NCBI RefSeq assembly: GCF_039822205.1
Contig: NZ_JBAGBW010000027.1
Span: 1 to 25,192, forward strand
DNA from: Thermodesulfobium sp. 4217-1
GTDB lineage: Bacteria; Thermodesulfobiota; Thermodesulfobiia; Thermodesulfobiales; Thermodesulfobiaceae
DNA: 25,192 nt
Direction: 5' to 3'
How positions within the stretch are numbered: position 1 is the stretch's first letter; each line of letters starts with the position of its first letter. The notes beneath the pieces were generated by a model. That model saw only the letters and a program-made list of their open reading frames with translations. It ran no database searches and had not been told where the DNA came from. The position numbers and the translations under genes are program-made. Of the stretch, positions 3,146 through 25,192 are shown in pieces.

Positions 3146-3157
3146 AACATCACTCCC

Positions 3158-5398: not shown

Positions 5399-8300
5399 CC
5401 GTCTGTTCGCCTCCATTCGTAATAATTTCGATTCCGACGGTCATGTTTTCCCTAACGAGCCGCTTAAGATACTGCTTCAATCTGGTATCGTTCATTTCAT
5501 CAATTTTCACGAGGGCTTTATCACTACCACCAGCGTTGTATTCAGCTTCGGCAAGTTGCTTGACTTTGTTTTTTACACTAGGATTTTCACGCCAATCATA
5601 AGTGTCTACAGACAAACGTCCAAGTGCGTCCCTAACTTTTTCTAGATCTTGGAGCAAAGGAAGGTATTCGCCGACAATATCACATTTAAATGCTTCATTG
5701 CGTTTATTTTCGTCCGATAAAATTTCGAAGAGTCTTGTTGTTTTAAGAAATTCAAGCGCGTCTTTTATTTCCACATCTTTAGACCAACTTCTGTTTAGTG
5801 TGTCAAACGCTTTTTTCGCCACGCCAAACTCGTTTTCGGATACACAGCAAAGTATCGGAGTTCTATATAGGCTTGACCATTCACAAGGATTTTTCGTACC
5901 AGTCTTCTCTTTCCAGAGTTTGAATAATTGTGTTTTTAATTGGTTCTTACGAAATTCCTCCGCTGCCGCCTTAACTTTGGAGTTGCAGTCAGTTTTCGAG
6001 AGTTCAAACATTTCCGTTGGTAGTTTGCTCTTTATCTCGCTGATATCAGAATCGCTCAAATCCTCGAGATAATGGTCGTAAACTTCGGTGAATATTTGCT
6101 TTTCGTTATTAAGTAAATCACGGATTTCTTCACTGTGTGCAGTCAGTTCTAAAAGGAACATCTTTAGCTGATCTGGTAATATTTCCGACTGCTGATATAT
6201 TGTCAGAAGCGTATTAAGGACTTTAGTTATTGAAGGAAATTTTGCTCTTAATGCCTCGCAAGAAACTCCGATAAACTTCAGCCGTTCACGCCATTCTTTA
6301 AATACTTCCGAACGAGAATGTGCAGCCACGTTTAAAAGCATATTGCTTTCTTTTACAACACCATAATCGGACAGGAGTTTGCTGATTTCATCCGCACCTG
6401 TCTGTCTATCCCACAAACAGGAATGCTTAACCTCAAATAAAGCACGAATGTCCGAGAGTACATTCCCAATTGCGCCAATTTCAGCAGCAAGCGATAGAAT
6501 TTTCCCGCCTTTAAATGAGGTCAAGAACTTGCGCATTCCATTTTGGCAGTTTTCTCCTGTAAGAAGAGCTGCTAATTTTTCAGATAATATGGTTTTGGCA
6601 TTAGCGATCTCACCTATTTCAACGGCTTTTTTGTGTGCTTCATTTCCCTCTTTCTGGATGAGCTCAATGTACTTTTGAATAACGTCATAAACACCATAAT
6701 TATCAACTTCGGCAAGGCACCACACGGGCAATCTAAGCCCACGCATTTTTCCAGTTACGGCGAGAGCTGCCTGCCCTGCCGACGAACAAGAATTAGGCGC
6801 AATGCCCCAAGCTTTTTCAGTGTATTCGTAGAACGCCCTTTCTTCATCTGTCATTTTTACAATATAAGTAGGTTTTAGAGTTTTTCCAATATAATTGCTG
6901 AGCATTTCCGCGAGCTTGTCCTGTGTCATTGACTCGTGACTACCGGATGAATCGCTGTATCGGAAAGGCTTATCGCCATATTCTTTCAGCAGGAAGCCCG
7001 CAAGGAACGCTGAAAGGTTGCAAGGTGCAAAACCGTAACTCTCTTCGAGGAAGCCATATATTTCGCTGATTGAAATCTGTACGCCGCGACTAAACGCGGC
7101 CTCAATAAACTTGTCCAACTCGACTTTTATCTTTGAAATCGGCAGCTTTGTCGTGGTCGGAGCTTCCCAGTATTTATCTGATTTCCACACAGTAGGCAAA
7201 ACGTGCTTTTCTATGCCGGCAACAACGCCGCTAGTGCTTTGCGTAATACCGCATTTTGCACTTGCTTTACCGTTAGTAAGTTTTAACTGATTTTCGCTTA
7301 GCCCTTTGGCAAAATCGAAGACGAGAGGAAATCGAGCAGTTACTATAGCTTGGAGAACGCTCGCCACGCCTTGTTCATTGCTGAGTTTTCCCCCCTTTTG
7401 ATTTGTATAGGTGTATACTATGAATTGCCCATTGTAAATACGGTTTTTCCAGTCCTGATCTAAGATGTGTTTTGCCTTGTCATTATTTTCCCGCGATGCT
7501 GAATTGTTGTTTCCGTTATAATACATAGCCATAGCGGAATAATCCACATACTGTTCGAAAGCTTCAATTCCAAGCGGGGTAGAGAGCGCATCTATAAATA
7601 CAATGTTTTCGTACCGCTTATCCTCAATCGCTGCTTTGATAGTTTTTCGGAAGCTGCAAGCTTCGACATCGCTTTTGGCGAACGCTATAACAGCATGGAA
7701 ATTCCACTTAGTTTCTTTTGTATATAGGTTATTGATTGTGCGGGTAAAATCCGTAGTTGTTACAGGTATAATTTTCCCTGTATTTGGTTCGGATTCAAAC
7801 CGCAAACGGAGCGCAGGAGATAGAGAAAGAACGGTTGAAAGACCACCCTCGGCAACAAGCTTCGAAGTTGTGCTATTATTGCGGATATCTTTTTTGTAAC
7901 TGTCAATCCTTGCTTGGTCGCCTGCAAGCACAGCAACGGCAAAAACATGCTTACCACCGCTTATTGGGTTTGAAACCAAGATTCCTTTTGATACAAGTTG
8001 TTTGGCAATATTGATGCAAGCCATTAATTCCAAATTCGCAATTCCTTCAAACACATAACTTAGGTTTTGTTCTGTAGCTTTGAACAGATCAATCGTACCA
8101 CCCAAGCGTTGGTCGATCGCCTGTATTATCAGAATAGCCTTAAGGACAGCTTTCTCGTCTTCTCTCAAATTCTGCTGTTTGGTAAATGTATCTAAAATAA
8201 GCTGAATGTCGGAAGTAAGATTATCCCTGCCTTTTTCGTAGAAAAAGTTCCACAGCATATCCACTGTTAAGAGAGGATGATCGTCGATGGGACTCGTGTT

Positions 8301-9539
8301 CTCAATGAACCACTGAAAGGCTTTCACATCGTACATGTTTGACTTTATAAAGTCAAACATACTTCTCTGATTGGATTTAAACGCAGTGGCTATATTCTTA
8401 AGCAAAAGAGCAGCCATAGGGTGGATCGGCATAATGTTTTTTATCACTTCTGGATCTGTAATTTTCGTAGCCGTCATGACTGCCGCACGAGAAGAATTAA
8501 CTCGTTTGTTCAAGTCGTCAGCCAACACTTCCCAGTTGCCTTGCGCTGCTTGCTTAGCTTTAAAAGCATGACCGATGAGATCAAACGCTATGTTATCCGG
8601 CAGAGTGATTTGAACGGGAATAAAGCGATCACGCACTTTTGTCCAAGTGTCGTCTGCTGTGAGGAATAGCTGACCTGACTCGTGTGTAACCACAATAAAA
8701 TAGAAAGGCTTCAGGTTTACCAGTTCGACGAGTTTCTGAAATTCAGACAAGCTATCACGATTGTTTTTGAAATAGTCAGAGAATTCGTCCCAAATAAAGA
8801 CGATTTTCACATTGTTTTGGTTGATAACGTCAGTTATCCAAGCTAAAAGCCTATCCGTGTCGATGTCCAATGCGGTAATGCCTTCTTTGTCGGCGAGGCG
8901 GAACAGGTTATCCATCAGCTGTTTGACTTCACCTACTTTACGGAGTCGGAGTGCATTCAACACTTCTTCAGCAGTTGACTGTGAAAACAAAGCCTTCCAT
9001 TCCGGCTTTTGTAAAAGCGCGTCAAGGAACAACTTGTGCGACGGTTCATCAATCCAAGCGATGACGCTTTCTTTCAGCGTGTTTTCACCTGCATAGAGTT
9101 CTTTCTCATTCAGGGCAGATCTTATACTATCCTGCACGGCAAGGAACAAATTACGAGGAGAATTAATACCACCGGAGGCATATCGGTGCACAGTTACAAT
9201 TCCTGTTTGCTTATGTCCGATGAGTTTTTCGAGCAGATCTGGTTTCTTTTTAAGTGGCTCATACTTGTTCCAGTAAGCACGGAGTTCATCTTCCTGAACT
9301 TCAAGAAATTTCTTTAATGTATAGGCACATTGTGATTTACCTGTGCCGTAAGCTCCCTCAATCCAAAGAGAACGCATATTGTTACGAGCCAAAACACATT
9401 CCATACTACTTAGCAACTTTATAAAAGCTTGATGGGGATATGTATGTTTCCAATAATCAGGATTTGCTTCTATTGTGGAATTATTTACTTGCGGGAAGTA
9501 TCCTTCGTCTATATCGAAGTAATCCCTATAACTAGACAT
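5388..9539 (-). CDS. brxC: BREX large P-loop ATPase BrxC/PglY
   Basis: A 1383-residue ATPase of the BrxC/PglY family, the largest core protein of BREX complexes. With the start used here the Walker A is GAYGTGKS at 62-69 and a Walker B-like IWDEF has D251-E252. The rest is long, mostly helical and without recognisable catalytic motifs, as is usual for the family. The start is decided by GAGGAG seven bases before the ATG at 9539, which overlaps the brxP stop by eight bases; the in-frame ATG at 9572 lies deep inside brxP and is less likely. Translation of brxP, brxC and pglZ is probably coupled. The intact length and P-loop argue that the gene is functional. Confidence 0.9.
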   Translation of the reverse strand: MSSYRDYFDIDEGYFPQVNNSTIEANPDYWKHTYPHQAFIKLLSSMECVLARNNMRSLWIEGAYGTGKSQCAYTLKKFLEVQEDELRAYWNKYEPLKKKPDLLEKLIGHKQTGIVTVHRYASGGINSPRNLFLAVQDSIRSALNEKELYAGENTLKESVIAWIDEPSHKLFLDALLQKPEWKALFSQSTAEEVLNALRLRKVGEVKQLMDNLFRLADKEGITALDIDTDRLLAWITDVINQNNVKIVFIWDEFSDYFKNNRDSLSEFQKLVELVNLKPFYFIVVTHESGQLFLTADDTWTKVRDRFIPVQITLPDNIAFDLIGHAFKAKQAAQGNWEVLADDLNKRVNSSRAAVMTATKITDPEVIKNIMPIHPMAALLLKNIATAFKSNQRSMFDFIKSNMYDVKAFQWFIENTSPIDDHPLLTVDMLWNFFYEKGRDNLTSDIQLILDTFTKQQNLREDEKAVLKAILIIQAIDQRLGGTIDLFKATEQNLSYVFEGIANLELMACINIAKQLVSKGILVSNPISGGKHVFAVAVLAGDQARIDSYKKDIRNNSTTSKLVAEGGLSTVLSLSPALRLRFESEPNTGKIIPVTTTDFTRTINNLYTKETKWNFHAVIAFAKSDVEACSFRKTIKAAIEDKRYENIVFIDALSTPLGIEAFEQYVDYSAMAMYYNGNNNSASRENNDKAKHILDQDWKNRIYNGQFIVYTYTNQKGGKLSNEQGVASVLQAIVTARFPLVFDFAKGLSENQLKLTNGKASAKCGITQSTSGVVAGIEKHVLPTVWKSDKYWEAPTTTKLPISKIKVELDKFIEAAFSRGVQISISEIYGFLEESYGFAPCNLSAFLAGFLLKEYGDKPFRYSDSSGSHESMTQDKLAEMLSNYIGKTLKPTYIVKMTDEERAFYEYTEKAWGIAPNSCSSAGQAALAVTGKMRGLRLPVWCLAEVDNYGVYDVIQKYIELIQKEGNEAHKKAVEIGEIANAKTILSEKLAALLTGENCQNGMRKFLTSFKGGKILSLAAEIGAIGNVLSDIRALFEVKHSCLWDRQTGADEISKLLSDYGVVKESNMLLNVAAHSRSEVFKEWRERLKFIGVSCEALRAKFPSITKVLNTLLTIYQQSEILPDQLKMFLLELTAHSEEIRDLLNNEKQIFTEVYDHYLEDLSDSDISEIKSKLPTEMFELSKTDCNSKVKAAAEEFRKNQLKTQLFKLWKEKTGTKNPCEWSSLYRTPILCCVSENEFGVAKKAFDTLNRSWSKDVEIKDALEFLKTTRLFEILSDENKRNEAFKCDIVGEYLPLLQDLEKVRDALGRLSVDTYDWRENPSVKNKVKQLAEAEYNAGGSDKALVKIDEMNDTRLKQYLKRLVRENMTVGIEIITNGGEQTDVD

Positions 9540-11871
9540 TTGTTTGCTCCTCTCTAAATAGGTTGAGCACATCTGACGATGTCTTATCCTCTGTAAGTGA
9601 TATTTTTTCTAAGTCGTGCGTAAAAGACGATGAAATGAACTCTGGATATTTTGCAGAAAGTCCCAATAAAATAGGCTTCATTTCATCACGTTCAAGCCCG
9701 AAAATTCTGGTAGGACTAATTCCATCGCGCTCTATACTGTCATTTAATAATGTAGCAAGTGTAAATTCTTTATAATTATTGCACTTTTCTGCAAACTTGA
9801 ATAAGCCATAAAGTGCTACACGAAGATCGGAAATAGAACATTTTGTACGTACAAGATCGCCGTCATCTGTGATATAGCCGAAATGTAGTATGGTACCAAA
9901 TGGAGTTTCTGTTAAGCGTTTGAAAGCATTTATTATGCTTGAAATATTATCTTTACTTTGCCCGCTAGCAGTAAGGCTATTTTCCAATTCGATACGTCTG
10001 TATGCCCTACCGATGTCCATTTCATGTATATACCAAGCGAACTGAGGATTATTTGTAACAAGATTAATGAACATGAATCCCAAAAAGACATCGGTATCCC
10101 ATGTCAATACCGCACCTAATTTAGCAAACGCGGTAGCCTCATTGTTCTTAACAAGATTAGCATCTTTTAGAAATCGTTTATAAAAAGGTTTTTGAACACG
10201 TCCTAACGTGTTGTTTTCAAGAAAGTCCGATTGGTGTTCAAAGAAATCTTTCAGCCATTCGGTTTTCGGAGCATGATTACTAAAAGTATTTAGAGATTTC
10301 ATTTTTCCACCCTCCTCATTAGGTATATTTAGTGAATGGTAAGCTAAACAGCCTGTTTCCATAGAATAGCAATCAAAACAATGATTGCAGTTTTCAATTC
10401 TTAATTTTCCTTTGAAAGAAATACAACCATTTTTACAAATTGCCATGCATGTTTTGCAGGGTATACAATATGCCGCTTTCCTGAATGTGTAGCGAAACAA
10501 TTTTCCGAACAAAGGGTTTTCTTTTGCATACCTCTCTGATAATCTAATAGTATAGCCTTCTTTCTTTAATTCGCAGATGAAAGCGAAAGATTGACTTTTG
10601 AAATCTATGATATAGTTGCTCTCTTTTTCATATAAATCTCCGAGGACTTTTATCCATTCTTTCCAATCGGTTTTTGGTGAGATAACATTTATGATAATTT
10701 CGCCATTTTTAGTGGTTTCGGAATATATTTTCTTATTATTAGTAAGAAAATGTCCATTTTTCCTTGCATTCCAACCACCTCTTGAAATATAGTCTTTTGA
10801 TGTAATAAAAGTTCTTGCATTACTTTCTTTTATATAAGATAGTAATACTTCTGATTCTTTTGGATAATTTGTGTGTTCTATAAAACTTGCTTTAGAACCT
10901 CCCATAGGACAACAAATACATCCTATCCTTGCACTACCTTTTTGATATGCCTCATTAATAGAAATGTCGTTAGCATATATATAAAGCCATACTTCTGCTG
11001 ATGTCCACTCTAAAATGGAGTTATGGCTGTATTGTCCCTTTTGTTTTTTACCATAATTCTCATATTCGTATTTGGACCGAGTTGCGCTCTCATAAGCTCG
11101 TACACCTACGAATGCTAATCCGACATAATTGCTCTTTCCTGTAATTTCTCGTAGCTTCAGCGTTTGTGGTGTGCTTTTATGAACGCTGCAGCACCATCTT
11201 AACACGCGCGATGGGGGTCCAAACAACTTCCATGATTCTTTCGGATCCAGATGGGATTTTGCTATATAAAAAGGTATTCCTTCTTCTTCACATTTGAGTT
11301 TCGTTTTCTCTACTATATCGTATGTATCAGGAAATTCCATACCTGTATCACCGAATACGACAACAAAGCCTCCTTTTGGCAGAGCTTTTTTTACGAGATC
11401 AAGCAAGACCGCACTATCTTTTCCTCCTGAGAAGGCTACGTAAAATAGGTCAAGCTTGTTTTTGTATTTTTCATAGATTGCTAATATCTTTTTTACAGTA
11501 GTTTGCTCTATGATTTCGAGCATCTCACGATTTGCATTTACCATTGTCTCAATATCAATTGTACGCAGGGCATTGCCTTCTGGTTCTGGCGTCACTGGAT
11601 TGCCATCGTCATCTTTTGGAATGATTATCTCAGGTGCTGTGTAGAGATTGCCTCCTTTAAGTTTGGCGACAAGTGTCCCTCGATACCAATAGTTGTTTGC
11701 TTCAGCCCACATATAAGGCAATTCATTTTGCTTATCGTATTTCCAATATTTATCAAATCCTAAAATGTCAAGCTCAGCTGCATATAAGGGGCGAGGTTCT
11801 TTTGAGCTAATAGTAGGTGATGAGTTTATCAATATCCCGCCTGTCTTCTTGTCGTATGTATATGAATACAA
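9532..11871 (-). CDS. brxP: BrxP: PAPS-reductase-like enzyme with 4Fe-4S cysteines and DUF4007-like domain
   Basis: The diagnostic gene of type 4 BREX, which has a PAPS-reductase/DndC-like PP-loop protein where other types carry the PglX methylase. By analogy with DndC it may take part in a sulfur-based DNA mark; that chemistry is inference. I place the start at the TTG at 11871 (MYSYTYD..., 779 residues), because AGGAGG at 11880-11885 is eight bases away; the TTG at 11877 is only two bases from it. Domains: an N-terminal segment of about 125 residues; a PP-loop domain with SGGKDS at 148-153, then RWCCSVHK and GCICCPMGG; a ferredoxin-like cluster of nine cysteines (469, 472, 475, 479, 483, 495, 498, 501, 508); and a C-terminal region from about 525 resembling DUF4007 (VTNNPQFAWY). 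The start lies two bases beyond the upstream stop. Confidence 0.87.
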   Translation of the reverse strand: MYSYTYDKKTGGILINSSPTISSKEPRPLYAAELDILGFDKYWKYDKQNELPYMWAEANNYWYRGTLVAKLKGGNLYTAPEIIIPKDDDGNPVTPEPEGNALRTIDIETMVNANREMLEIIEQTTVKKILAIYEKYKNKLDLFYVAFSGGKDSAVLLDLVKKALPKGGFVVVFGDTGMEFPDTYDIVEKTKLKCEEEGIPFYIAKSHLDPKESWKLFGPPSRVLRWCCSVHKSTPQTLKLREITGKSNYVGLAFVGVRAYESATRSKYEYENYGKKQKGQYSHNSILEWTSAEVWLYIYANDISINEAYQKGSARIGCICCPMGGSKASFIEHTNYPKESEVLLSYIKESNARTFITSKDYISRGGWNARKNGHFLTNNKKIYSETTKNGEIIINVISPKTDWKEWIKVLGDLYEKESNYIIDFKSQSFAFICELKKEGYTIRLSERYAKENPLFGKLFRYTFRKAAYCIPCKTCMAICKNGCISFKGKLRIENCNHCFDCYSMETGCLAYHSLNIPNEEGGKMKSLNTFSNHAPKTEWLKDFFEHQSDFLENNTLGRVQKPFYKRFLKDANLVKNNEATAFAKLGAVLTWDTDVFLGFMFINLVTNNPQFAWYIHEMDIGRAYRRIELENSLTASGQSKDNISSIINAFKRLTETPFGTILHFGYITDDGDLVRTKCSISDLRVALYGLFKFAEKCNNYKEFTLATLLNDSIERDGISPTRIFGLERDEMKPILLGLSAKYPEFISSSFTHDLEKISLTEDKTSSDVLNLFREEQTNV

Positions 11872-11873
11872 CC

Positions 11874-13415
11874 TCAATTCCTCCTCTCGCGTTTGGCTTT
11901 TGCCTGTTCAATCAATTCATCGGTTTTTGCATAAGACCGCCTGCCTATGTATCCGTTGCTGCACAAAAATTCTTCAATTACCGTTTTTTCAAGTGGTATG
12001 TCAGATTTTGCGACTGCATCCGCCATAATTTGAGCATAAGACAGACTGCAGCTTTTTCGGACTATTACGCCTGCATTTTTAGAATTAAACGCTAACACCT
12101 CAAATCGAAATCTATCGCTGAACCGTCGGCAATAGCTTTCAAGCAGAAACAAGCTCCAAGCCTGTTCACAATGTGGGAACGCCGCAAATGTGGTAATGCT
12201 TTTAAGCGTTAGGTATTCACTGGTTACGAACAGATCAAGCACGCTGTCAATCTTGGCAACATCAAAATGAACATACTTTTCTGCTATGTAGTTATCCTTG
12301 TTTACTCGCACCATTACGGAATAACCAGCTTCCATCGGTATCCAACGACGTGTTTCTCCCGTAAGTTCTCGCTCAAAATCAAGTAAGTTCTGGAGAGAGC
12401 ATTTGTCCAACTTGCGGCAATACTCTTTCATTATGGTTAGTGCGTCAAGAGTGTCACCCTTGCGGGTTATGATTTTACCACGCCTGTCATATTTGTCGGA
12501 AAGGACAATCTCAAATATTGCGTTGTGAATTGCCGTAACCGTAAGTTCATAATTGCACTCTGCGATTTCCTCAAACGGAACATAGCTGAGAGAAACGTAA
12601 CCATCTCTCCGACAGGCAACATCAACATAGTCGGTAATAACGTTACATTCCTCAACAGTCACATTAACTTTATTAATATGAGTGTAAACCCCCGTGGTAT
12701 TCCATATAAAATCACCGTACTGTGCCAACACGTATTTTATTTTATCGAGTGGAATAAAGGGCAAGCGTTCAGCAAGCTGTTCAAAGCTTAACAAGTTATT
12801 ATCACCCCAAATACGCAGGATTTCACCTTTGATTTTGGCGAGCTCCGTATCGTTTCCCGCTTTTGGTGAGAAGTATTTTGTTTTGTGCACATATTTCGGG
12901 TACATCTTAACAAGTATCTCTTTCAGCATTTCCTCAGAGATGACTCCTCCTGCAAGCAACCATTCTTCATGCTGAGTGTAAAACGAACTGTAGAAGATAA
13001 TTTCTACGCCGCCTGAAACTGTCAAATCTACATTGTTTCGTATTCTGTTCTCAATTTCATTGCCGATGACATAAACCTTACCATTAAAGAAGATGCCGCA
13101 AGAAGAGATTGACTTGATTAACTCTTGATCGGTTATCAAGAGTTCATTGCCAAAGTTTTTGGCTGCGAAACGACGAAAGCGTAATAATTCAATTGGAGAA
13201 TCAATTCTAAAGCCGTTAGAAAAATGTGTCGACATTACCTCTGTTATCATTTTTGCAAATGCAGGTTCAAGCATTGTGTTAGACAAGATATGCGTTATAA
13301 CATTATTTTCCAAGCAATCAGTAGTTTCTGCTTTATGTTCAAAATGAGCCCTTTGGCGTGTAGCTAATAATAACATCGCCAAGAGGGATATCACAGTGTT
13401 GGCACAGTTTCCCAA
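11874..13415 (-). CDS. BREX-4 leader-gene protein, probable C-terminal portion of a frameshifted gene
   Basis: I do not recognise a named family. The frame is open for 513 codons from a weak TTG at 13415, which has no ribosome binding site; in-frame ATGs occur at 13376 and 13274. Visible elements are a GFRIDSPIEL block, a GKVYVIGNE strand, and a segment around EQLAERLPFIPLDKIKYV that could be a winged helix, followed by a Cys-rich helical half (FLLESYCRRFS) and a very basic C-terminus (KAKRERR). It overlaps the preceding fragment (13339-14160) by 77 bp in another frame. Skipping one T in the TTTT run at about 13342 would fuse the two into one protein of about 760 residues. It lies two bases upstream of brxP, so a regulatory or DNA-binding accessory role is plausible but unproved. 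Confidence 0.5.
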   Translation of the reverse strand: MGNCANTVISLLAMLLLATRQRAHFEHKAETTDCLENNVITHILSNTMLEPAFAKMITEVMSTHFSNGFRIDSPIELLRFRRFAAKNFGNELLITDQELIKSISSCGIFFNGKVYVIGNEIENRIRNNVDLTVSGGVEIIFYSSFYTQHEEWLLAGGVISEEMLKEILVKMYPKYVHKTKYFSPKAGNDTELAKIKGEILRIWGDNNLLSFEQLAERLPFIPLDKIKYVLAQYGDFIWNTTGVYTHINKVNVTVEECNVITDYVDVACRRDGYVSLSYVPFEEIAECNYELTVTAIHNAIFEIVLSDKYDRRGKIITRKGDTLDALTIMKEYCRKLDKCSLQNLLDFERELTGETRRWIPMEAGYSVMVRVNKDNYIAEKYVHFDVAKIDSVLDLFVTSEYLTLKSITTFAAFPHCEQAWSLFLLESYCRRFSDRFRFEVLAFNSKNAGVIVRKSCSLSYAQIMADAVAKSDIPLEKTVIEEFLCSNGYIGRRSYAKTDELIEQAKAKRERRN

Positions 13416-14160
13416 TTATTTCTACAATTGTCTGAGAGCTGTAATTGGTAAAAATCCACTTACCATTTGACAGCTTGGCGCTATTACCTAAGTTAGTTCT
13501 TTGCTGTATAAAAAAAACTCTATTGCCTTTTATTTTTATTCTGTCAAGAATATTTAAATTAGTATTTTTCTCTTCTATCAGCCACTCAGTAACCGCAACC
13601 AACAAGCTTGACCAGCTTTGTCTATCAAGCAAGATGGCTTGACCGTTTATAATGCAGCTAATAGGGATTGTGTTTATACAGAGATCTGGATGCTCAAAGT
13701 CTACGATTGAAGCAGTGCTATTATTACCAATTGACTCTGTATCTTGTGAAATTGACTGTGTAGATTTAATATTAATGTTAAATACTTTATTAGATGGAGC
13801 TCTTGCTTTTATAAAATCCTTATCTTTTAAAAATTTTAAATACATTTGTCCAGCTACAAGAAAAATCTTATAGGTATTCCTATCAGTTATTCTAAGTAGC
13901 TTATCATTTAGAATTTTGTCGTACACCATTCTAAAAATAGAATTTTTTGAAATATTCCATATATCCACATCGCAAAATTTTTGTTTAATTGCATAATCTG
14001 AAATAGTGTCAAGACAATCTATCAATATATTATTTGATTAAGTTTTGCGATGTAAGGTCGAGAGCCAGGAAATGAAATTATCTTTCAATGAAATGGTTTT
14101 TAATAAAGCGCCTTGTTCGCTGTGTGTATTTTTATTGCTAATGCCTTCTCTATTTGTCAT
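13339..14160 (-). pseudogene. N-terminal part of the BREX-4 leader gene, interrupted by an in-frame TAA
   Basis: Reading from an ATG at 14160, the frame gives 40 residues ending in NFISWLSTLHRKT, a TAA at 14038-14040, then continues open in the same frame to 13339. Across the stop, the segment from FISWL to CLDTISDYAI has the spacing of a phage-integrase-type SAM-like N-terminal domain (F..WL, then a helix ending in L.TIS), which suggests one continuous domain cut by a nonsense codon. The second half carries a small domain ending in KLSNGKWIFTNYSSQTIVEI and HCDIPLGDVIISY. No good ribosome binding site precedes either the ATG or the TTG at 14025 after the stop. The frame ends at a TGA overlapping the start of the next fragment. 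Alternatively, the 228-residue part after the stop is a real small protein started at TTG. Confidence 0.55.
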
Positions 14161-16801: not shown

Positions 16802-16831
16802 ATGAAAAACAAGGTGTGTGGATATGAGTAA
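16802..16831 (+). other. Possible nine-codon leader ORF overlapping the helicase start
   Basis: ATG AAA AAC AAG GTG TGT GGA TAT GAG TAA, with AGGGG six bases upstream. It ends inside the first codons of the helicase gene (ATG 16824), an arrangement that could couple translation. It may be fortuitous. Confidence 0.25.
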
Positions 16832-19800
16832 CTTTATTACAAATTCAGGCGAAAGGTCTTTGAAGAGTAGAATATCAACACTGGTCAAAAATAGCGCTGA
16901 ACTAAAATTTCTTGTTGGATTTTTTTACTTTTCTGGTTTGAAAGAGTTATATGAAAGCATGAAAGAGAACCAGGATGTAACCTTAAATGTGCTTGTAGGA
17001 CTCAATGTAGATACTTCGAACTTCGGCTTAATCGAATACGCTCAAAATAGAGATAATCTGTCACAAAGAGAAATTTCTGATAAATATTTATATTCTCTGA
17101 AGAAGTCTATTAACACAGAGCTTTTTGACACGAAAGAATTTTATAGCCAGTCAAAATTTTTTGTTGGTTTAATAAAATCAGGTAGGCTAAATATAAGAAA
17201 GACTCTTGAGCCAAATCACGCAAAGCTTTATCTTTTCAAACTAAAAAATGAGGTTGGCAGATCCAGACTTTTTATTACAGGAAGCAGTAATCTTACAAGT
17301 TCTGGACTGTCCAGACAAAAAGAGTTTAACGTGGAGATCTCTGACTATGGATTTAAAGAGGCAGAAGATTATTTTGATAAATTCTGGGAAGATTCTGTAG
17401 AGATTACCGAGAAAGATGAATCTAAGAATAGATTAATAAATACCCTTGAGAAAGAGACGCTAATAAGAAAGGTTACACCTTTTGAGGCGTATGCGCTGGT
17501 TCTAAAAAGTTATCTGGACGTTTTCAAGGGCAAGGATATCAGTCAGAGGTTGACAGAGATATTTGAAGAAAACGGCTATAAGCCATATTCATATCAGCTT
17601 GACGCTATCAAGCAAGCTCTGGGAATCATAGACCAAAGCAATGGAGTCTTGATAGCTGATGTGGTGGGACTGGGTAAGACTATTATTGCATGCGCGCTCG
17701 GATACGAGCTAAGGCAGCGGGGCATAGTGATAGCTCCTCCTGGCATTATAGGCGACAAAAAGAAGAGCTTCGGGTGGTGGAGATATTTAGAAGAGTTTGG
17801 CCTGGCGAAATTAGGATGGCAGCCATATTCTTCGGGAGACTTAAAGACTGTTCTCGAAGCTGTTTCGGTAGCAAAAGATATAGAAGTGGTTGTAGTTGAT
17901 GAGGCGCACAGATTTAGAAACCAAAACACTAAAGATTATGAGCTTCTAAAGAATATATGCATGGGCAAGAAGATAATTCTTTTGACTGCGACGCCTTTTA
18001 ACAATCAACCTTCAGATATATTTTCACTTCTGAAGCTGTTTATTATGCCGAAAAAATCAAGCATTACCTTGTCAGATAACCTAGAGTACAAATTCGATTT
18101 ATTTTCAAGCCAGTTTGACAAGCTCTCTTATATAAAGAAATACCTTGCTTCTTCTGATACGAAAAAAAGAGAAAGGGCAATATTTTACAACAAGCTTTTG
18201 TTTGGAACGGATAGGATAGATCTTAGAAGTGTAGACTTTCTTGCTCATTCAATAGCCAAACAGATCAAGGACGTAATAGAGCCTATTATTATCCGCAGAA
18301 ATAGACTGGATCTCGCTGAAAATCCAAATTACAACACGGAAATAGGTGAACTCTCAATTATAAAAGATCCAGATGAGTGGTTTTTCGAGCTCACATCAGA
18401 CCAATCTGATTTTTATGATAAGGTTATAGAAGATTATTTTGCCCTGCCAGAAGATGGTGGCAGGTTTAAAGGAGCTATATATAAGCCCTTTCTCTATGAA
18501 AAGGGAGTTTTAATAGAAGATCTTGAAAAGGGATTCACCAAAGAAGAAAATTTTCAATATTTTCAACAGATAAACCTATATGATTTTATGAGAAGGCTAC
18601 TGGTAAAAAGATTTGAGAGCTCTTTTGGTGCTTTTGAACAGAGTATAAGAAACTTTAAGAAGATTACAGAAGAAGTGCTAAAATTCATAGAAAAGACTGG
18701 AAAGTATATCTTAGATAGGGATCTACTTGAAAAAATCTACAACAAAGATATTGATGAAATAGAAGAATATTTAAATAACTATGCTAAGAATCTTGAAAAA
18801 GAGGAGCATTCGACAAACGACAAGATATATATCCTGAAGGAGTTTAAGCTCAAAGATAAGTTTGTTCAGGATATTAAAGATGACTTAGAGCTTTTTGATG
18901 ATATTTTAAAAGAATTAGCTAAACTAAATATGGTAGCTGACGATCCGAAAATAAAATCATTAATAAAAAATTTGAAGAAAGTTTTCAATATGCCTTCAAG
19001 CGGTAAAGAGCCAAAAAGAAAGGCTGTAATATTTACAGAGTATCTTGATACTGTAAAGTATCTTAAAAACACTCTGAACAAAAGGTTTAATAACAGGGTG
19101 CTTGTGGTAGAGGGTATTTTAAGTGCGAGCAAATTAAGAGAGATAAGAGAGAATTTTGACGCATCGTATGGTGAACTAAAGGATGACTACGACATACTTC
19201 TTACAACCGATATGGTTTCTGAGGGATTTAACCTGAATAGGGCTGGGATAGTGGTGAACTATGATATACCCTGGAATCCTGTAAGGGTAATCCAGAGGGT
19301 GGGAAGAATCAATAGAATATCCAAAAAGGTTTTTGAAGAGCTATATATTGCAAATTTCTTTCCTACGCAAAAGGGCTCAGACCTGGTAAGGTCAAGGGAT
19401 ATCGCATCGAACAAGATGTTTATGATTCACAAGGCTTTGGGTGAAGACTCTAAAATATTTGATGTGGACGAAGAACCTAAGGCGTCAAATCTTTATAAAA
19501 GGATACAGCAAAACCCTGATGAGATGGAAAAAGAGAGCTTTTATACCAGAATTTTCAGAGAATTTGAAGATATAAAGAAAGAGCGCCCAGATATAGTAGA
19601 AGTGCTAAATAGCTTCCCAAATAGAGTAAAGGTTGCTAAATCTGGCGGCAAAGATGAGGTCTTTGTGGTCATAAAGAAGGGCAAAATTTATGTAAATCAC
19701 AGAATTTATGATGAGGAGACAAAGGAAGTAAGTTCATTAGAAGACGTAATAGATGACATTCGTTCAGATGAGAACGAAAAAGGTCTGGAGCTTAGCGATA

Positions 19801-20168
19801 GATTTTGGGATGAATATATGATTTTGAGAGATTATGAGGGTAAAATTGACAAGCCTTTTAAAAATAGCGCCCAAAGCATTGAAACTAAGGCTTATAATCT
19901 TTTGAGAAGCTTGCAAAAGAAAGATAGCCTTTCGGATCAAAAAGACTTTATCAATACTCTCATAGAAGATATTCGCGATTATGGATCTTTATCTGAATAC
20001 ACGCTAAGAAGGCTGGTAAATATGGAAAAGATGAAAGAGGATAGCGTGTCAAAAGAGATTTCGAATCTTAAAAAAGAGTTGGGCGCTGACTATCTAAAAA
20101 GAGAGAAAGAAAGATTGAAAAGCCTAAATAAAGAGGTAATCATAGCTATAGAAAATAGAAGGGGATAG
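16824..20168 (+). CDS. PLD-like domain / SNF2-type helicase fusion protein
   Basis: A probable DNA translocase-nuclease of 1115 codons including the stop. The first 230 or so residues form a phospholipase D-like domain with HAK at 132-134 and GSSNLTSSG; the Asp of the HKD motif is replaced by Lys. A superfamily 2 SNF2/HepA-like motor follows: GLGKT at 282-286 (motif I), DEAH at 359-362 (motif II), LLTATPFNN (motif III), then a roughly 250-residue helical insertion, and TTDMVSEGFNL with QRVGRINR (motifs V and VI). The C-terminal part is charged and coiled-coil-like. I prefer ATG 16824, with AAGGTG upstream; GTG at 16818 is two codons earlier. The methyltransferase gene follows after three bases, so the two are surely co-expressed. 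This points to restriction by a helicase-nuclease and its cognate modification enzyme; biochemical role inferred. Confidence 0.85.
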   Translation: MSNFITNSGERSLKSRISTLVKNSAELKFLVGFFYFSGLKELYESMKENQDVTLNVLVGLNVDTSNFGLIEYAQNRDNLSQREISDKYLYSLKKSINTELFDTKEFYSQSKFFVGLIKSGRLNIRKTLEPNHAKLYLFKLKNEVGRSRLFITGSSNLTSSGLSRQKEFNVEISDYGFKEAEDYFDKFWEDSVEITEKDESKNRLINTLEKETLIRKVTPFEAYALVLKSYLDVFKGKDISQRLTEIFEENGYKPYSYQLDAIKQALGIIDQSNGVLIADVVGLGKTIIACALGYELRQRGIVIAPPGIIGDKKKSFGWWRYLEEFGLAKLGWQPYSSGDLKTVLEAVSVAKDIEVVVVDEAHRFRNQNTKDYELLKNICMGKKIILLTATPFNNQPSDIFSLLKLFIMPKKSSITLSDNLEYKFDLFSSQFDKLSYIKKYLASSDTKKRERAIFYNKLLFGTDRIDLRSVDFLAHSIAKQIKDVIEPIIIRRNRLDLAENPNYNTEIGELSIIKDPDEWFFELTSDQSDFYDKVIEDYFALPEDGGRFKGAIYKPFLYEKGVLIEDLEKGFTKEENFQYFQQINLYDFMRRLLVKRFESSFGAFEQSIRNFKKITEEVLKFIEKTGKYILDRDLLEKIYNKDIDEIEEYLNNYAKNLEKEEHSTNDKIYILKEFKLKDKFVQDIKDDLELFDDILKELAKLNMVADDPKIKSLIKNLKKVFNMPSSGKEPKRKAVIFTEYLDTVKYLKNTLNKRFNNRVLVVEGILSASKLREIRENFDASYGELKDDYDILLTTDMVSEGFNLNRAGIVVNYDIPWNPVRVIQRVGRINRISKKVFEELYIANFFPTQKGSDLVRSRDIASNKMFMIHKALGEDSKIFDVDEEPKASNLYKRIQQNPDEMEKESFYTRIFREFEDIKKERPDIVEVLNSFPNRVKVAKSGGKDEVFVVIKKGKIYVNHRIYDEETKEVSSLEDVIDDIRSDENEKGLELSDRFWDEYMILRDYEGKIDKPFKNSAQSIETKAYNLLRSLQKKDSLSDQKDFINTLIEDIRDYGSLSEYTLRRLVNMEKMKEDSVSKEISNLKKELGADYLKREKERLKSLNKEVIIAIENRRG

Positions 20169-20171
20169 ACG

Positions 20172-23100
20172 ATGAAACTAAATATAGACGAACTGATAAA
20201 CTGCTTTTCAGATGATCTGCTTAGAAGACTCCTGGAGGCAAATTCATCATTTAAGCCTGAAAGTGAGGAGCTATTCTACGAAGGATATGATAAATTTCAA
20301 GACCTAAGGTATCTTGGGAGCATAGAATTTGAGGATACGAATAGATTGGGACTCTTTTCAATAAAAGTAAACAAAGAGCTTAACGAAAGGTCTGGCAAAA
20401 AGGAACAATATAAATTAGGTAAGCAAATTCAAGAAGAGCATAGGCTTGATCTTGCTATCTTTGCCTTTTATGATGAACAGGGCAGCTTTAGGTTATCTTT
20501 AATATACAAAGAATATGCGGGAACGAAAAGCGCTACAAGCTCTTATAAGAGATTTACCTTTTACGTAAACAAAAAGCTTACAAACAAGACCTTTAAAGAT
20601 CAGATAGGAAAGTGCAATTTTAGCTCGTTTGGGGAGATAAAGAGCGCATTTTCGGTAGAGCCCGTAACAAAGGCATTTTATGAAGAGATTCAGACCTGGT
20701 ATTTCAATGCATTGGATAAGATCCATCTCCCAGATGACTTTAAATTTTCTGATAACCCAGAAAAGGATAGAGAAATAAGAAATTCTACTTCTTTAATAAG
20801 ACTAATAACAAGAGTTATATTTATCTGGTTTCTAAAAGAGAAATCCTTAGTTCCAGAGGATCTATTTTCAGAGGATAGGATAGGAAATATCATTAAAGAC
20901 TTCAAGACCTCAAACAACTATTACAACGCAATCTTACAAAATCTATTCTTTGCAACGCTAAACAGTGATGAATCTCAAAGAGGCTTTGCTGAAGATAAAG
21001 GCTATCCGATGAATGTGTCCAATTATGGGATAAAGACGCTGTACAGATATCTGGATAAGTTTCTTATATCTAAGGATGAAATATTAGAAATATTTAGCAC
21101 TGTTCCATTTTTGAACGGCGGCTTATTTGATTGTCTGGACAAAGAAAATGAGAATAAAAAAGTAATATATTTAGACGGATTTTCCAGAAATAAAGATAAG
21201 CAAGCAAGGATACCTGATTATCTTTTCTTTCAACCTGAAGAAGAGAGAATAGACATCTCTAATTATATACAGGGAGGCAATAAAAAGAGTGTAAGAGGGC
21301 TTTTTGACATATTAAAAAGTTACAACTTTACTATAGATGAAAATACCCCGTTCGATCAGGAAATAGCCCTTGACCCTGAGCTTCTGGGTAAGGTATTCGA
21401 AAACCTTCTGGCAGCGTATAACCCTGAGACCTCTACTACTGCAAGGAAGGCAACAGGAAGCTACTATACCCCAAGAGAAATAGTGGACTATATGGTAGAA
21501 GAGAGCCTGTTTCATCACTTTTTAAATATTTTAGGTCAATCTGATGAAAATACTGAAAAACTTAGAAACCTTCTTTCGTACTCTTCTGAAGAGAACCCCT
21601 TTAATGAGAGTGATACGAAAAGATTGATAGAGGCGATATTCGATCTAAAGGTATTAGATCCTGCCTGCGGTTCTGGTGCATTTCCCATGGGGATACTGCA
21701 TAGGCTTACATTTATTCTGGGCAAGCTCGATCCTGATAACGAATACTGGTATGAATTGATATATCGCAAGGCCGTAAACGAATCTAAAGAGATTTTTGCT
21801 AATGAAGACAAATCTGAAAGAGAGATAATGCTAAAAGAGTTAAACGATTCTTTTGACAAAAGCTTTGCCGATCCTGACTATGCAAGAAAGCTATATCTCA
21901 TAGAAAATTGTATATATGGAGTGGATATTCAGCCTATTGCCATTCAGATATCGAAGCTAAGGTTTTTCATATCGCTTGTGATAGATCAAAAAGTGGATAA
22001 AAATAGGCCAAATTCAGGCATAAAAGCCCTGCCTAACCTTGAAACAAAGTTTATAGCTGCAAATTCGCTTATTGGTATAGACAGACCTCAAAATCTTTTA
22101 TATATAGATGATATCGAAGAGATAGAAGGAAAGATAAAGCAAATTAAGCACAAGTTCTTTCAGGCAAAAACAAGAAACAATAAGATGAATCTTCAAAAAA
22201 GAGACAAAGAACTAAGGAAAAGGTTATCTGAAATGCTAAATAAAGTTATTCCATTTGAAGACTCTGAGAAAATAGCTAACTTTGATATCTTTGATCAAAA
22301 CTCAAGCGCTGAGTGGTTTGACCCTGAGTGGATGTTTGGCGTAAGAGATGGCTTTGACATTGTAATTGGAAATCCGCCTTATATACAGCTGCAAAAGAAT
22401 GCAGGTTTGCTTGCAAAAAGGTATAGAAACTTTAATTACAAAGTGTTTAACAGCATGGGTGATATATACGCACTTTTTTATGAAAAGGGTATAGATCTTT
22501 TGAAAGAAGATTCCCATCTTTGCTTAATTACATCAAACAAGTGGATGAGAGCAGGTTACGGAGAGAATTTAAGAGAGTTTTTTACAAAGCTTAATCCAAA
22601 GATTTTAATTGATTTAGGACCTGGAGTATTTGAAAGCGCAACTGTAGATACAAATATCTTGCTCGTTCAAAAGAAAGGAAACCAAAAAGAACTTATTGCT
22701 ACCACGCTGCAAAAAGAAGATAAGGAAAACATATTAAACGCTATAAAAGAAAAGGGAGTAATCTTAGATAAGCTTTCTAAAGACGCCTGGTTCATAGGAA
22801 GTAGTGCTGAGCAAAAACTAAAAGAAAAGATAGAAAGAATTGGAAAACCGCTTAAAGATTGGGATGTAAAGATTTATCGTGGCATATTAACAGGCTTAAA
22901 CGAAGCTTTTATAATTACCACAGAAAAAAAAGATGAGATACTTGCAAACTGCAAGACTGAAGAAGAAAGAAAAAGAACAAGTGAAATTATAAAGCCAATT
23001 CTTAGAGGAAGGGATATAAAGAGATATTATTACGAGTGGGCGGGGCTGTGGCTTTTATGGATTTATCAAGGCATTAATATTGAAAAATATCCCTCTATTT

Positions 23101-23654
23101 TGCAACATTTATTACCTTTTAAGAAAAAATTAGAAGTTAGGACGGGCGGAGCAAAAATTGCTGGTGACCCCTCAACCGTCCCATATAAATGGTACGAATT
23201 ACAAGTGGACTCTGCCGCTCACATTTCCGAGTTTGAGAAGGAAAAGGTGGTGTGGCAAAGAATTACACAAGAGCCAACTTTCTGTTTAGTTGAGCCAAAT
23301 GTTTTTATTCTTGATAGTATGGCATTTTTCACAGGTAATAAATTGAAATATGTAATGGCTTTGCTGAATTCAAAAGTAATTTATGAATATGTAAAAATGA
23401 TAGTTCACCAGTATGGATTTACAGGTTTTAGATTGTCAAATCAATATGTTGAAGTTATGCCTCTTCCCCCCATCACCCCTCCCAACGAGGCTTTGGTAAA
23501 ACGCATCGAGTCGCTGGTGGATAAAATACTTGCCGCCAAAAAACAAACCCCTCAGGCGGATACGAGTGAGTGGGAAAGAGAAATCGATGAGATTGTGTAT
23601 AAACTTTATGATTTAACAAATGAAGAAATAAGAATAATAGAGGGAGGGAGATGA
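20172..23654 (+). CDS. Eco57I-class adenine-specific DNA methyltransferase with recognition domain
   Basis: An N6-adenine DNA methyltransferase of the large type IIG-like class, 1160 residues. GSYYTPREIVDYMVEE (motif X-like) precedes the SAM-binding motif DPACGSGAF at 496-504 (motif I), and NPPY at 734-737 is the catalytic motif IV. The C-terminal third, starting at about KDWDVKIYRGILTGLNEAF, matches the TaqI-like specificity region of Eco57I-type enzymes. The N-terminal 330 residues are helical and beta-rich; I see no clear PD-(D/E)XK site there, so cleavage may reside in the partner helicase/PLD protein. GGGGA lies about seven bases upstream of the ATG. Ile codon use changes sharply at about 23041, inside the recognition region, suggesting recombination. 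The next gene starts three bases after its stop. Confidence 0.88.
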   Translation: MKLNIDELINCFSDDLLRRLLEANSSFKPESEELFYEGYDKFQDLRYLGSIEFEDTNRLGLFSIKVNKELNERSGKKEQYKLGKQIQEEHRLDLAIFAFYDEQGSFRLSLIYKEYAGTKSATSSYKRFTFYVNKKLTNKTFKDQIGKCNFSSFGEIKSAFSVEPVTKAFYEEIQTWYFNALDKIHLPDDFKFSDNPEKDREIRNSTSLIRLITRVIFIWFLKEKSLVPEDLFSEDRIGNIIKDFKTSNNYYNAILQNLFFATLNSDESQRGFAEDKGYPMNVSNYGIKTLYRYLDKFLISKDEILEIFSTVPFLNGGLFDCLDKENENKKVIYLDGFSRNKDKQARIPDYLFFQPEEERIDISNYIQGGNKKSVRGLFDILKSYNFTIDENTPFDQEIALDPELLGKVFENLLAAYNPETSTTARKATGSYYTPREIVDYMVEESLFHHFLNILGQSDENTEKLRNLLSYSSEENPFNESDTKRLIEAIFDLKVLDPACGSGAFPMGILHRLTFILGKLDPDNEYWYELIYRKAVNESKEIFANEDKSEREIMLKELNDSFDKSFADPDYARKLYLIENCIYGVDIQPIAIQISKLRFFISLVIDQKVDKNRPNSGIKALPNLETKFIAANSLIGIDRPQNLLYIDDIEEIEGKIKQIKHKFFQAKTRNNKMNLQKRDKELRKRLSEMLNKVIPFEDSEKIANFDIFDQNSSAEWFDPEWMFGVRDGFDIVIGNPPYIQLQKNAGLLAKRYRNFNYKVFNSMGDIYALFYEKGIDLLKEDSHLCLITSNKWMRAGYGENLREFFTKLNPKILIDLGPGVFESATVDTNILLVQKKGNQKELIATTLQKEDKENILNAIKEKGVILDKLSKDAWFIGSSAEQKLKEKIERIGKPLKDWDVKIYRGILTGLNEAFIITTEKKDEILANCKTEEERKRTSEIIKPILRGRDIKRYYYEWAGLWLLWIYQGINIEKYPSILQHLLPFKKKLEVRTGGAKIAGDPSTVPYKWYELQVDSAAHISEFEKEKVVWQRITQEPTFCLVEPNVFILDSMAFFTGNKLKYVMALLNSKVIYEYVKMIVHQYGFTGFRLSNQYVEVMPLPPITPPNEALVKRIESLVDKILAAKKQTPQADTSEWEREIDEIVYKLYDLTNEEIRIIEGGR

Positions 23655-23657
23655 AAT

Positions 23658-25192
23658 ATGGAAGTGAAGAAAATAAATTCAATTAGAAGTTTTGGACAAT
23701 TTACTGAATTTGATTGGGACGAAAATCTATCCCAGTTTGAAAATTATAATTTCTTTTATGGCTGGAATTATTCTGGTAAAACTACTTTATCAAGAATATT
23801 CAGAAGTATTGAAAAAAGACAACTTCATAAGGATTATCAAAACTCAACATTTTCTCTTGAATTAGAAAATAATCAAAAGCTGACTGATAAAAATATTGAT
23901 AACAATTATCCTATACGAGTTTTCAATGAAGACTTTATTGAAGATAACTTTGAGTGGAATAATGAAAATGCTGGAATAGATCCAGTTCTCATTTTAGGAG
24001 AGGAGTCAAAAGAACTTGATAAACAACTAAAACAAAAACAGAAAGAAGAGGAGGTAAAAAAAGAAGACAAGAGCAATTATGAAAATGAAAAAAATCAAAA
24101 AGAAAGAGACCTTCAAAATAAACTAACCGCAAAAGCATCAGAAATACGCAGTATTTTATCAATCACAAATTCAAAAGAATTTGACAGAAATGCATTAGAA
24201 AAAAAAATAGAGCAGATTAAGGAAAATTTTTCAGAAAAAATTTTATATGATAATAAATTAGAGAATTTGAGAGATGTGATTGTCAGCCAAAAGTCAGATG
24301 TAATTAGTCTTTCAATGATCTCATTAGATTTTAAGCTTGGTCAATATATTAATGATATAAAAAAAATCCTTAATAACAAAGTAACTGCCCAAAAAATTAT
24401 TGAAAAACTAAATCAAAATACCCGTCTAAGTGAATGGGTAAAAGAAGGCATCGATCTACATAAAAATGAAGACACTTGTCAATTTTGTGGAAATTCTTTA
24501 ACAAAAGAGCGTTTGGATGAACTAAACAAGCATTTTTCCGAAGAATTCAATCTGTTGATGAAAGAGATTGATGAAAAAGAAGCTGAATTAAATCATCATA
24601 TTGAATATATAAACCAAATTTCGTTTCCAGATAAAGCAAGACTTTATAATGAGTTCCAACAAGATTATGAAGACTTGCTGAATCGTTTTAATGAGATAAA
24701 AATACAGTACATTAATACTGTTGAAAGTTTAATAAAAGAATTAAAGAGAAAAAAAGGAAAACCTTTTGAAACAATCACTATTGATCAGTCTATTAATGAA
24801 GACATAGAAAAGGAAATAATTAATTTATTTGCAGAAATTAAAAAAATTATTGAGCAACAGAATAATAAGGTAAATTCTTTAGCAAAGGAAAAAGAAGATG
24901 CAAAAGAAAAAATAAAATTGCATTACTGTGCAAAGTTTATTCAAGATGAAAAGTATTTTGAGTTAAAAAATGAGATTACTCAATTAGATGAGAAAATCAA
25001 AAATTTAGAGCAGGAAATTAATAATATTACTGAAGAGATTAAGGAGATAGAGCAAAAAATTAAAGCCTCAGCTATTGGTGCAAAGAAGTTAAATGAGTAT
25101 TTAAATAACTTTTTCAGTGATGATAGGTTTAAAATAGAACAAACTGAAAATGGTCGATATAAACTTTATAGAAATGATCAAATTGCAAAAAA
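23658..25192 (+). CDS. PrrC/RloC-like AAA_13 ATPase with zinc hook (3' end outside window)
   Basis: The frame runs open from ATG 23658 to the window edge (511 codons seen). GGAGGGAG lies just upstream. The N-terminus has the family's opening (KKINSIRSFGQF), then Walker A GWNYSGKT at 35-42 and the characteristic RVFNEDFIEDNF segment and ILGEES. Long charged coiled coils flank a CQFC zinc hook at C274-C277, in the arrangement of Rad50-like RloC proteins. RloC and PrrC are anticodon nucleases that cleave a tRNA when an associated restriction system is inhibited by phage. The second ATPase half and any nuclease triad lie beyond the window, so an AAA_13 ATPase without nuclease activity remains possible. 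The gene is three bases from the methyltransferase stop, so it belongs to the same operon. Name rloC is likely but unproved. Confidence 0.75.
   Translation, partial: MEVKKINSIRSFGQFTEFDWDENLSQFENYNFFYGWNYSGKTTLSRIFRSIEKRQLHKDYQNSTFSLELENNQKLTDKNIDNNYPIRVFNEDFIEDNFEWNNENAGIDPVLILGEESKELDKQLKQKQKEEEVKKEDKSNYENEKNQKERDLQNKLTAKASEIRSILSITNSKEFDRNALEKKIEQIKENFSEKILYDNKLENLRDVIVSQKSDVISLSMISLDFKLGQYINDIKKILNNKVTAQKIIEKLNQNTRLSEWVKEGIDLHKNEDTCQFCGNSLTKERLDELNKHFSEEFNLLMKEIDEKEAELNHHIEYINQISFPDKARLYNEFQQDYEDLLNRFNEIKIQYINTVESLIKELKRKKGKPFETITIDQSINEDIEKEIINLFAEIKKIIEQQNNKVNSLAKEKEDAKEKIKLHYCAKFIQDEKYFELKNEITQLDEKIKNLEQEINNITEEIKEIEQKIKASAIGAKKLNEYLNNFFSDDRFKIEQTENGRYKLYRNDQIAK

Follow-up and report, generated by a model that had tools for sequence, protein, structure and literature searches.

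A PLD-SNF2 helicase and adenine methylase gene pair followed by an RloC-like zinc-hook ATPase gene in Thermodesulfobium sp. 4217-1: a candidate restriction module with an exchangeable effector

Three closely spaced genes that run to the end of a contig of Thermodesulfobium sp. 4217-1 raise the question of whether they form a dedicated three-part defence system or a restriction module to which a separate effector has been added. The window analysed here (the whole stretch of DNA, 25,192 nucleotides) is the entire contig C27 of a 2.0-Mb genome assembled in 69 contigs, and in our collection the phylum is represented by four genomes, all of one genus. The three genes are as follows.

16824 to 20168, plus strand: gene 1, PLD nuclease-SNF2 helicase, 1114 amino acids (alternative GTG start at 16818)
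20172 to 23654, plus strand: gene 2, adenine DNA methylase with a recognition domain, 1160 amino acids
23658 to 25192, plus strand: gene 3, RloC-like ABC ATPase, first 511 amino acids (AAA_13, 5.9e-82; PADLOC PDC-S06, 4e-109)

The open reading frames and gaps were verified and agree with a sequence-only reading of this DNA, which had described three consecutive genes in a single transcription unit. The intergenic gaps (20169 to 20171 and 23655 to 23657) are 3 bp each, and the starts of genes 2 and 3 are each preceded by a purine-rich, Shine-Dalgarno-like stretch. For gene 1, the ATG at 16824 and the GTG at 16818 are equally plausible starts. The ORF of gene 3 was called at 23658 to 25190 on the plus strand and is open at the contig end; because the window is all of contig C27, this truncation is an effect of the assembly. 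A complete-looking type 4 BREX set (brxL, pglZ, brxC, and brxP; minus strand, 1664 to 11877) adjoins the operon on the opposite strand, and the contig can thus be regarded as a defence island. Two further minus-strand ORFs (513 and 228 amino acids; 11874 to 14025) lie at the end of this operon that carries brxP; neither matched a Pfam family above the cut-off, and the 513-residue ORF additionally matched no PADLOC or NCBIfam model.

Gene 1 was named a PLD-SNF2 helicase in the sequence-only reading, and the Pfam domains and conserved motifs agree with this. All Pfam matches were above their cut-offs: PLDc_2 and RE_NgoFVII at the N terminus, then SNF2-rel_dom and Helicase_C.

16896 to 17387, plus strand: PLD nuclease domain of gene 1 (Pfam PLDc_2 and RE_NgoFVII; conserved residues in a 42-sequence alignment)
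17868 to 19319, plus strand: SNF2 motor of gene 1, with intact DEAH, TATP, and QRxGRINR motifs

The PLD residues H132, K134, N156, and E167 are invariant in the alignment of 42 relatives, and a GLGKT motif (residues 282 to 286) lies just upstream of the SNF2 motor span. This H-x-K ... N ... E set resembles that of BfiI, a dimeric restriction enzyme of the PLD type, at its active site. Per-block identities of gene 1 are 76 to 100% with the orthologue in genome G003 and 64 to 96% with that in G002. No relative of this helicase was found in phages at 1e-40, and searches of solved structures with genes 1 and 2 gave only generic SNF2 and DNA methylase matches.

The assignment of gene 2 as an adenine methylase was likewise upheld, by Pfam matches to Eco57I and N6_Mtase and by the DPACGSG and NPPY motifs, which are invariant among 31 aligned relatives; Pfam also places a TaqI_C domain in the protein, and PADLOC type IIG models match it.

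21906 to 22616, plus strand: Eco57I methylase domain of gene 2, with NPPY at residues 734 to 737 and DPACGSG (residues 496 to 502) upstream
22992 to 23462, plus strand: TaqI_C target-recognition domain of gene 2 (Pfam; 24 to 44% identity with the G003 orthologue)

The label "type IIG-like" that gene 2 had been given is misleading, however. A type IIG enzyme has an adenine methylase and a recognition domain in a single chain, as gene 2 does, and carries a PD-(D/E)XK nuclease motif in that same chain, whereas no conserved D...ExK motif was found in the N-terminal region across the 31 sequences of the gene 2 family (an AlphaFold model of residues 1 to 410, with a mean pLDDT of 48, was of too low quality to assess the fold). 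Gene 2 is therefore better called a methylase-specificity subunit, and the predicted nuclease of the module is the PLD domain of gene 1. Compared in 50-residue blocks, gene 2 and its G003 orthologue are mostly 74 to 98% identical, with a drop to 44, 32, and 24% over residues 951 to 1100 and 64% over residues 1101 to 1150; relative to the G002 protein, the sequence is diverged or replaced throughout from about residue 650 to residue 1100. Such divergence of the recognition region between the closest species, with gene 1 staying similar, is the signature of a change in DNA specificity.

Gene 3 matches AAA_13 and PADLOC PDC-S06 along its 511-residue length, and these matches, together with the Walker A and CxxC motifs, bear out its description as an RloC-like zinc-hook ATPase.

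23760 to 23786, plus strand: Walker A motif GWNYSGKTT of gene 3, intact and common to 11 full-length relatives
24477 to 24488, plus strand: zinc hook CQFC of gene 3 (C274 and C277), both cysteines invariant in 12 sequences

Like RloC, gene 3 has an N-terminal ABC ATPase head with Walker A and a CxxC zinc-hook insert, and its relatives share the RloC size class and nuclease triad. RloC is found alone or in type I or type III loci, whereas gene 3 follows a PLD-SNF2/Eco57I-methylase pair and its C terminus is unread. Relatives also contain LSEGE, IDDPVSSLDS, and STHN, the corresponding region of gene 3 being beyond the contig end. In published RloC proteins the nuclease motif reads R-X3-E-X36-52-H, and the His is often preceded by Ser (PMC2610378). 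Each of the 11 full-length relatives has an R-X3-E/D-X38-47-H triad, a spacing that falls within the published range, with D in place of E in one of them; the closest, L031, matches the PrrC model at 3.5e-16. The anticodon-nuclease triad that had been predicted is thus present in the relatives, while gene 3 itself ends at residue 511, before the sites of the triad; its unsequenced nuclease half could be degenerate. No solved structure matched a gene 3 relative.

The missing half of gene 3 was not found when its own assembly was searched with the C terminus of a relative. A DNA match on contig C1 of about 41 bases was taken as chance. Contig C19 opens with 285 nucleotides encoding the C terminus of the gene found behind the methylase in G002, and then continues into a gene that we take from its sequence to be icd; it was rejected as the tail of gene 3 because it encodes the tail of a different gene. 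In both G002 and G003 the order is helicase, methylase, third gene, and icd, with differing third genes. This order and the start of contig C19 make the arrangement helicase, methylase, gene 3, gap, G002-type gene, and icd likely here, gene 3 having been inserted behind the methylase and contig C27 presumably joining contig C19.

Does the trio recur? Helicase relatives were drawn from 386 domain-wide genomes and from 395 and 340 genomes of two phyla, together with five genome contigs and three plasmids, which gave 48 distinct helicase loci (49 were listed; L004 and L107 are one contig). A methylase gene lies near the helicase gene in 41 of the 48 loci, from several phyla, and the other seven end at contig breaks. 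A profile search with gene 3 found no member in any of the 48 helicase loci. Similarly, the gene 1-gene 2 pair is absent from all 16 loci with gene 3 relatives (14 genomes and two plasmids); this helicase is missing from nine of ten genomes with gene 3 relatives and lies ~690 kb away in the tenth. Gene 3 is also absent from the remaining three genomes of the genus, although these do have the pair or a more divergent form of it. The idea of a dedicated three-gene system, put forward from the sequence, is thus not sustained by the neighbourhood search, which found no gene 3 homologue beside the pair in this sample. Given the modest size of the sample and the breaks at contig ends in several loci, rare repeats of the trio may exist. 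An apparent helicase-methylase fusion of 2210 amino acids (L075, 4887 to 11519) was discarded as an artefact spanning a run of N (X residues). No description of the exact helicase-methylase pair was found in the searchable open-access literature, outside which many papers lie. The three-gene set is a combination of known parts that did not recur in this sample; gene 3 is a plug-in, one of many that accompany this common but little-studied pair.

The pair is accompanied elsewhere by other added defence genes, which sit between or just behind the helicase and methylase genes.

L106, 8629 to 12489, and L114, 8312 to 11659 (helicase forward): Dsr1 (SIR2), directly behind the pair and, in L114, overlapping it by 4 bp
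L100, 4938 to 5794: nucleotidyltransferase and HepT (MNT-HepT), between helicase and methylase
L111, 3606 to 4570, and L116 (oriented), 5206 to 6176: nucleotidyltransferase and a small protein, between helicase and methylase
L117 and L119: SLFN_AlbA_2 proteins, with the pair
L104: DUF1016/PDC-S02, with the pair
L069: AAA_14-DUF4143/PDC-S01, with the pair
L105: OLD/GajA-like ATPase, with the pair
L063: KAP, with the pair
L113: Mrr, with the pair
L041 (G000 contig C31), 300 to 8542: DUF3800 gene, 3 bp behind the pair

The inserts in L100, L111, and L116, a nucleotidyltransferase with a HepT-like or unassigned small gene, are a possible second association of the pair with a HEPN toxin. The last locus, L041, belongs to the source genome itself, which thus has a second PLD-SNF2 helicase and methylase pair, at 31 to 33% identity. 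The relatives of gene 3 keep other company.

L031, L130, and L132: type III loci
L032 and L035: type I loci, inside hsd operons
L038: behind an EcoRI-type methylase
L036, 9054 to 20000: BREX-related layout, beside DUF6079-methylase-SNF2 genes

In L036, the RloC-like gene is divergently oriented, with a small ORF and the DUF6079-methylase-SNF2 genes lying ~0.3 kb away. In L132 (9606 to 11793), the RloC-like gene is seemingly split into two ORFs; the L031 copy is intact.

The gene order, the domains, the PLD and methylase motifs, the variable recognition domain, the Walker A motif, and the zinc hook are present in the sequence, and the nuclease triad in the relatives; we infer DNA translocation and cleavage, the sensing of ends, the cutting of tRNA, and any coupling of gene 3 to the module. 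In our favoured and reasonably probable reading, genes 1 and 2 would be a type I-like restriction-modification chassis of two subunits, to which an exchangeable back-up effector, RloC in this case, has been added. The methylase/TRD subunit (gene 2) would recognize a short motif, marking its adenines in host DNA and locating sites that lack the mark; the SNF2 motor of gene 1 would then travel on the unmarked DNA, which the PLD domain, probably dimeric, would cut. Gene 3 would act as a second-line effector, whose Rad50-like zinc-hook ATPase would sense DNA ends, among them ends from the restriction module or the phage, and whose C-terminal HEPN anticodon nuclease would then be switched on, so that translation stops and the infection is aborted. 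RloC is switched on by linear DNA with ATP hydrolysis in the case of the Geobacillus protein and by inducers of DNA breaks in the case of the Acinetobacter one (PMC3874168). Since the known RloC trigger is DNA ends with ATP hydrolysis, the ends that the PLD module leaves could set it off. The order of events first proposed for this locus, with restriction first and cleavage of tRNA when restriction is blocked, is that of PrrC; work on RloC favours activation by DNA breaks and an internal switch (PMC3874168).

The main rival, which we consider rather unlikely, is that gene 3 is an independent RloC that shares only the transcript, with the restriction module and RloC acting separately. Because RloC can work without a linked restriction enzyme, coupling of gene 3 to the module may indeed be absent. 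Linkage to restriction genes is unusual for RloC (8 of 72; PMC2610378), the Acinetobacter restriction proteins neither silence RloC nor mediate its activation (PMC3874168), and the scarcity of this helicase in the genomes with gene 3 relatives points the same way. However, selection for co-expression is suggested both by the 3-bp spacing behind the methylase and by the recurrent restriction-locus neighbours of gene 3 relatives (L031, L032, L035, and L038).

Restriction operons of type I and of type III are known to include anticodon nucleases. It is also conceivable, though improbable, that the restriction complex keeps gene 3 inactive and frees it when a phage anti-restriction factor strikes the complex. 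PrrC with the type Ic enzyme EcoprrI is the precedent (PMC3710099); there, too, a tRNA-cutting effector lies beside a restriction enzyme, a gene 3 relative shows C-terminal kinship to PrrC, and hsd operons contain gene 3 relatives (L032 and L035). PrrC differs in having no zinc hook, in being controlled by the restriction enzyme, and in its host module. Against such coupling, RloC carries a built-in switch (PMC3874168), gene 3 here lies beside a module other than type I, and their linkage is not conserved in the loci sampled. Silencing in the manner of PrrC is less likely than an RloC back-up triggered by DNA ends. A fixed three-part machine similar to Pbe/CxC, in which the zinc-hook ABC ATPase loads the PLD-helicase, is very improbable: those systems do combine a helicase of the HKD-SF2 type and a zinc-hook ABC ATPase, in some cases with a methylase (PMC10853773), but they have cytosine methylases, DndE, and a CxC-clade ATPase, whereas gene 3 is AAA_13/RloC-like with no DndD or Pbe model matching at the threshold used, its relatives end in the RloC triad, DndE was not seen in the window, and the trio does not recur in the loci sampled.

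Other known systems resemble the operon in part. BREX-related Type-2 loci (HKD-Swi2/Snf2 helicase, DUF1156 methylase, DUF499 ATPase, and DUF3780; PMC12839542) have a PLD/HKD-SNF2 helicase and an adenine methylase in common with it, but none of the operon proteins contains DUF499, DUF1156, or DUF3780, and the methylase here is of the Eco57I/TaqI_C type. DrmD and DrmMI of class 1 DISARM are distantly related to this SNF2 helicase and adenine methylase; however, gene 1 scored 159 bits against the DrmD equivalog cut-off of 610, its PLD domain is fused to the helicase, and no DrmA, DrmB, or DrmC was found among the scanned proteins of the window. Hma has the same three-gene layout of helicase, methylase, and ATPase, but HmaB is an m5C methylase (PMC8565338) and gene 2 is of the N6-adenine type, the HmaA model covers only part of gene 1, and gene 3 matches PDC-S06, not HmaC.

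HEPN effectors adjoining restriction genes are an established theme (PMC3710099). The operon adds another host module to the type I and type III enzymes already known to carry anticodon nucleases, and it suggests that many restriction designs can take up effectors of the RloC type. More widely, the PLD-SNF2/methylase pair is conserved while the defence genes lying between its two members or behind them are interchangeable. Tentatively, and as something we hold possible rather than probable, the pair may represent a widespread, unnamed class of split, type I-like restriction systems acting as a chassis for exchangeable suicide effectors (Dsr1, MNT-HepT, Schlafen/AlbA, and RloC), and the DNA ends that it creates would here feed the RloC tRNase directly. 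If confirmed, the operon would provide a tractable model of layered immunity, in which the question is whether cutting by the first layer triggers the second.
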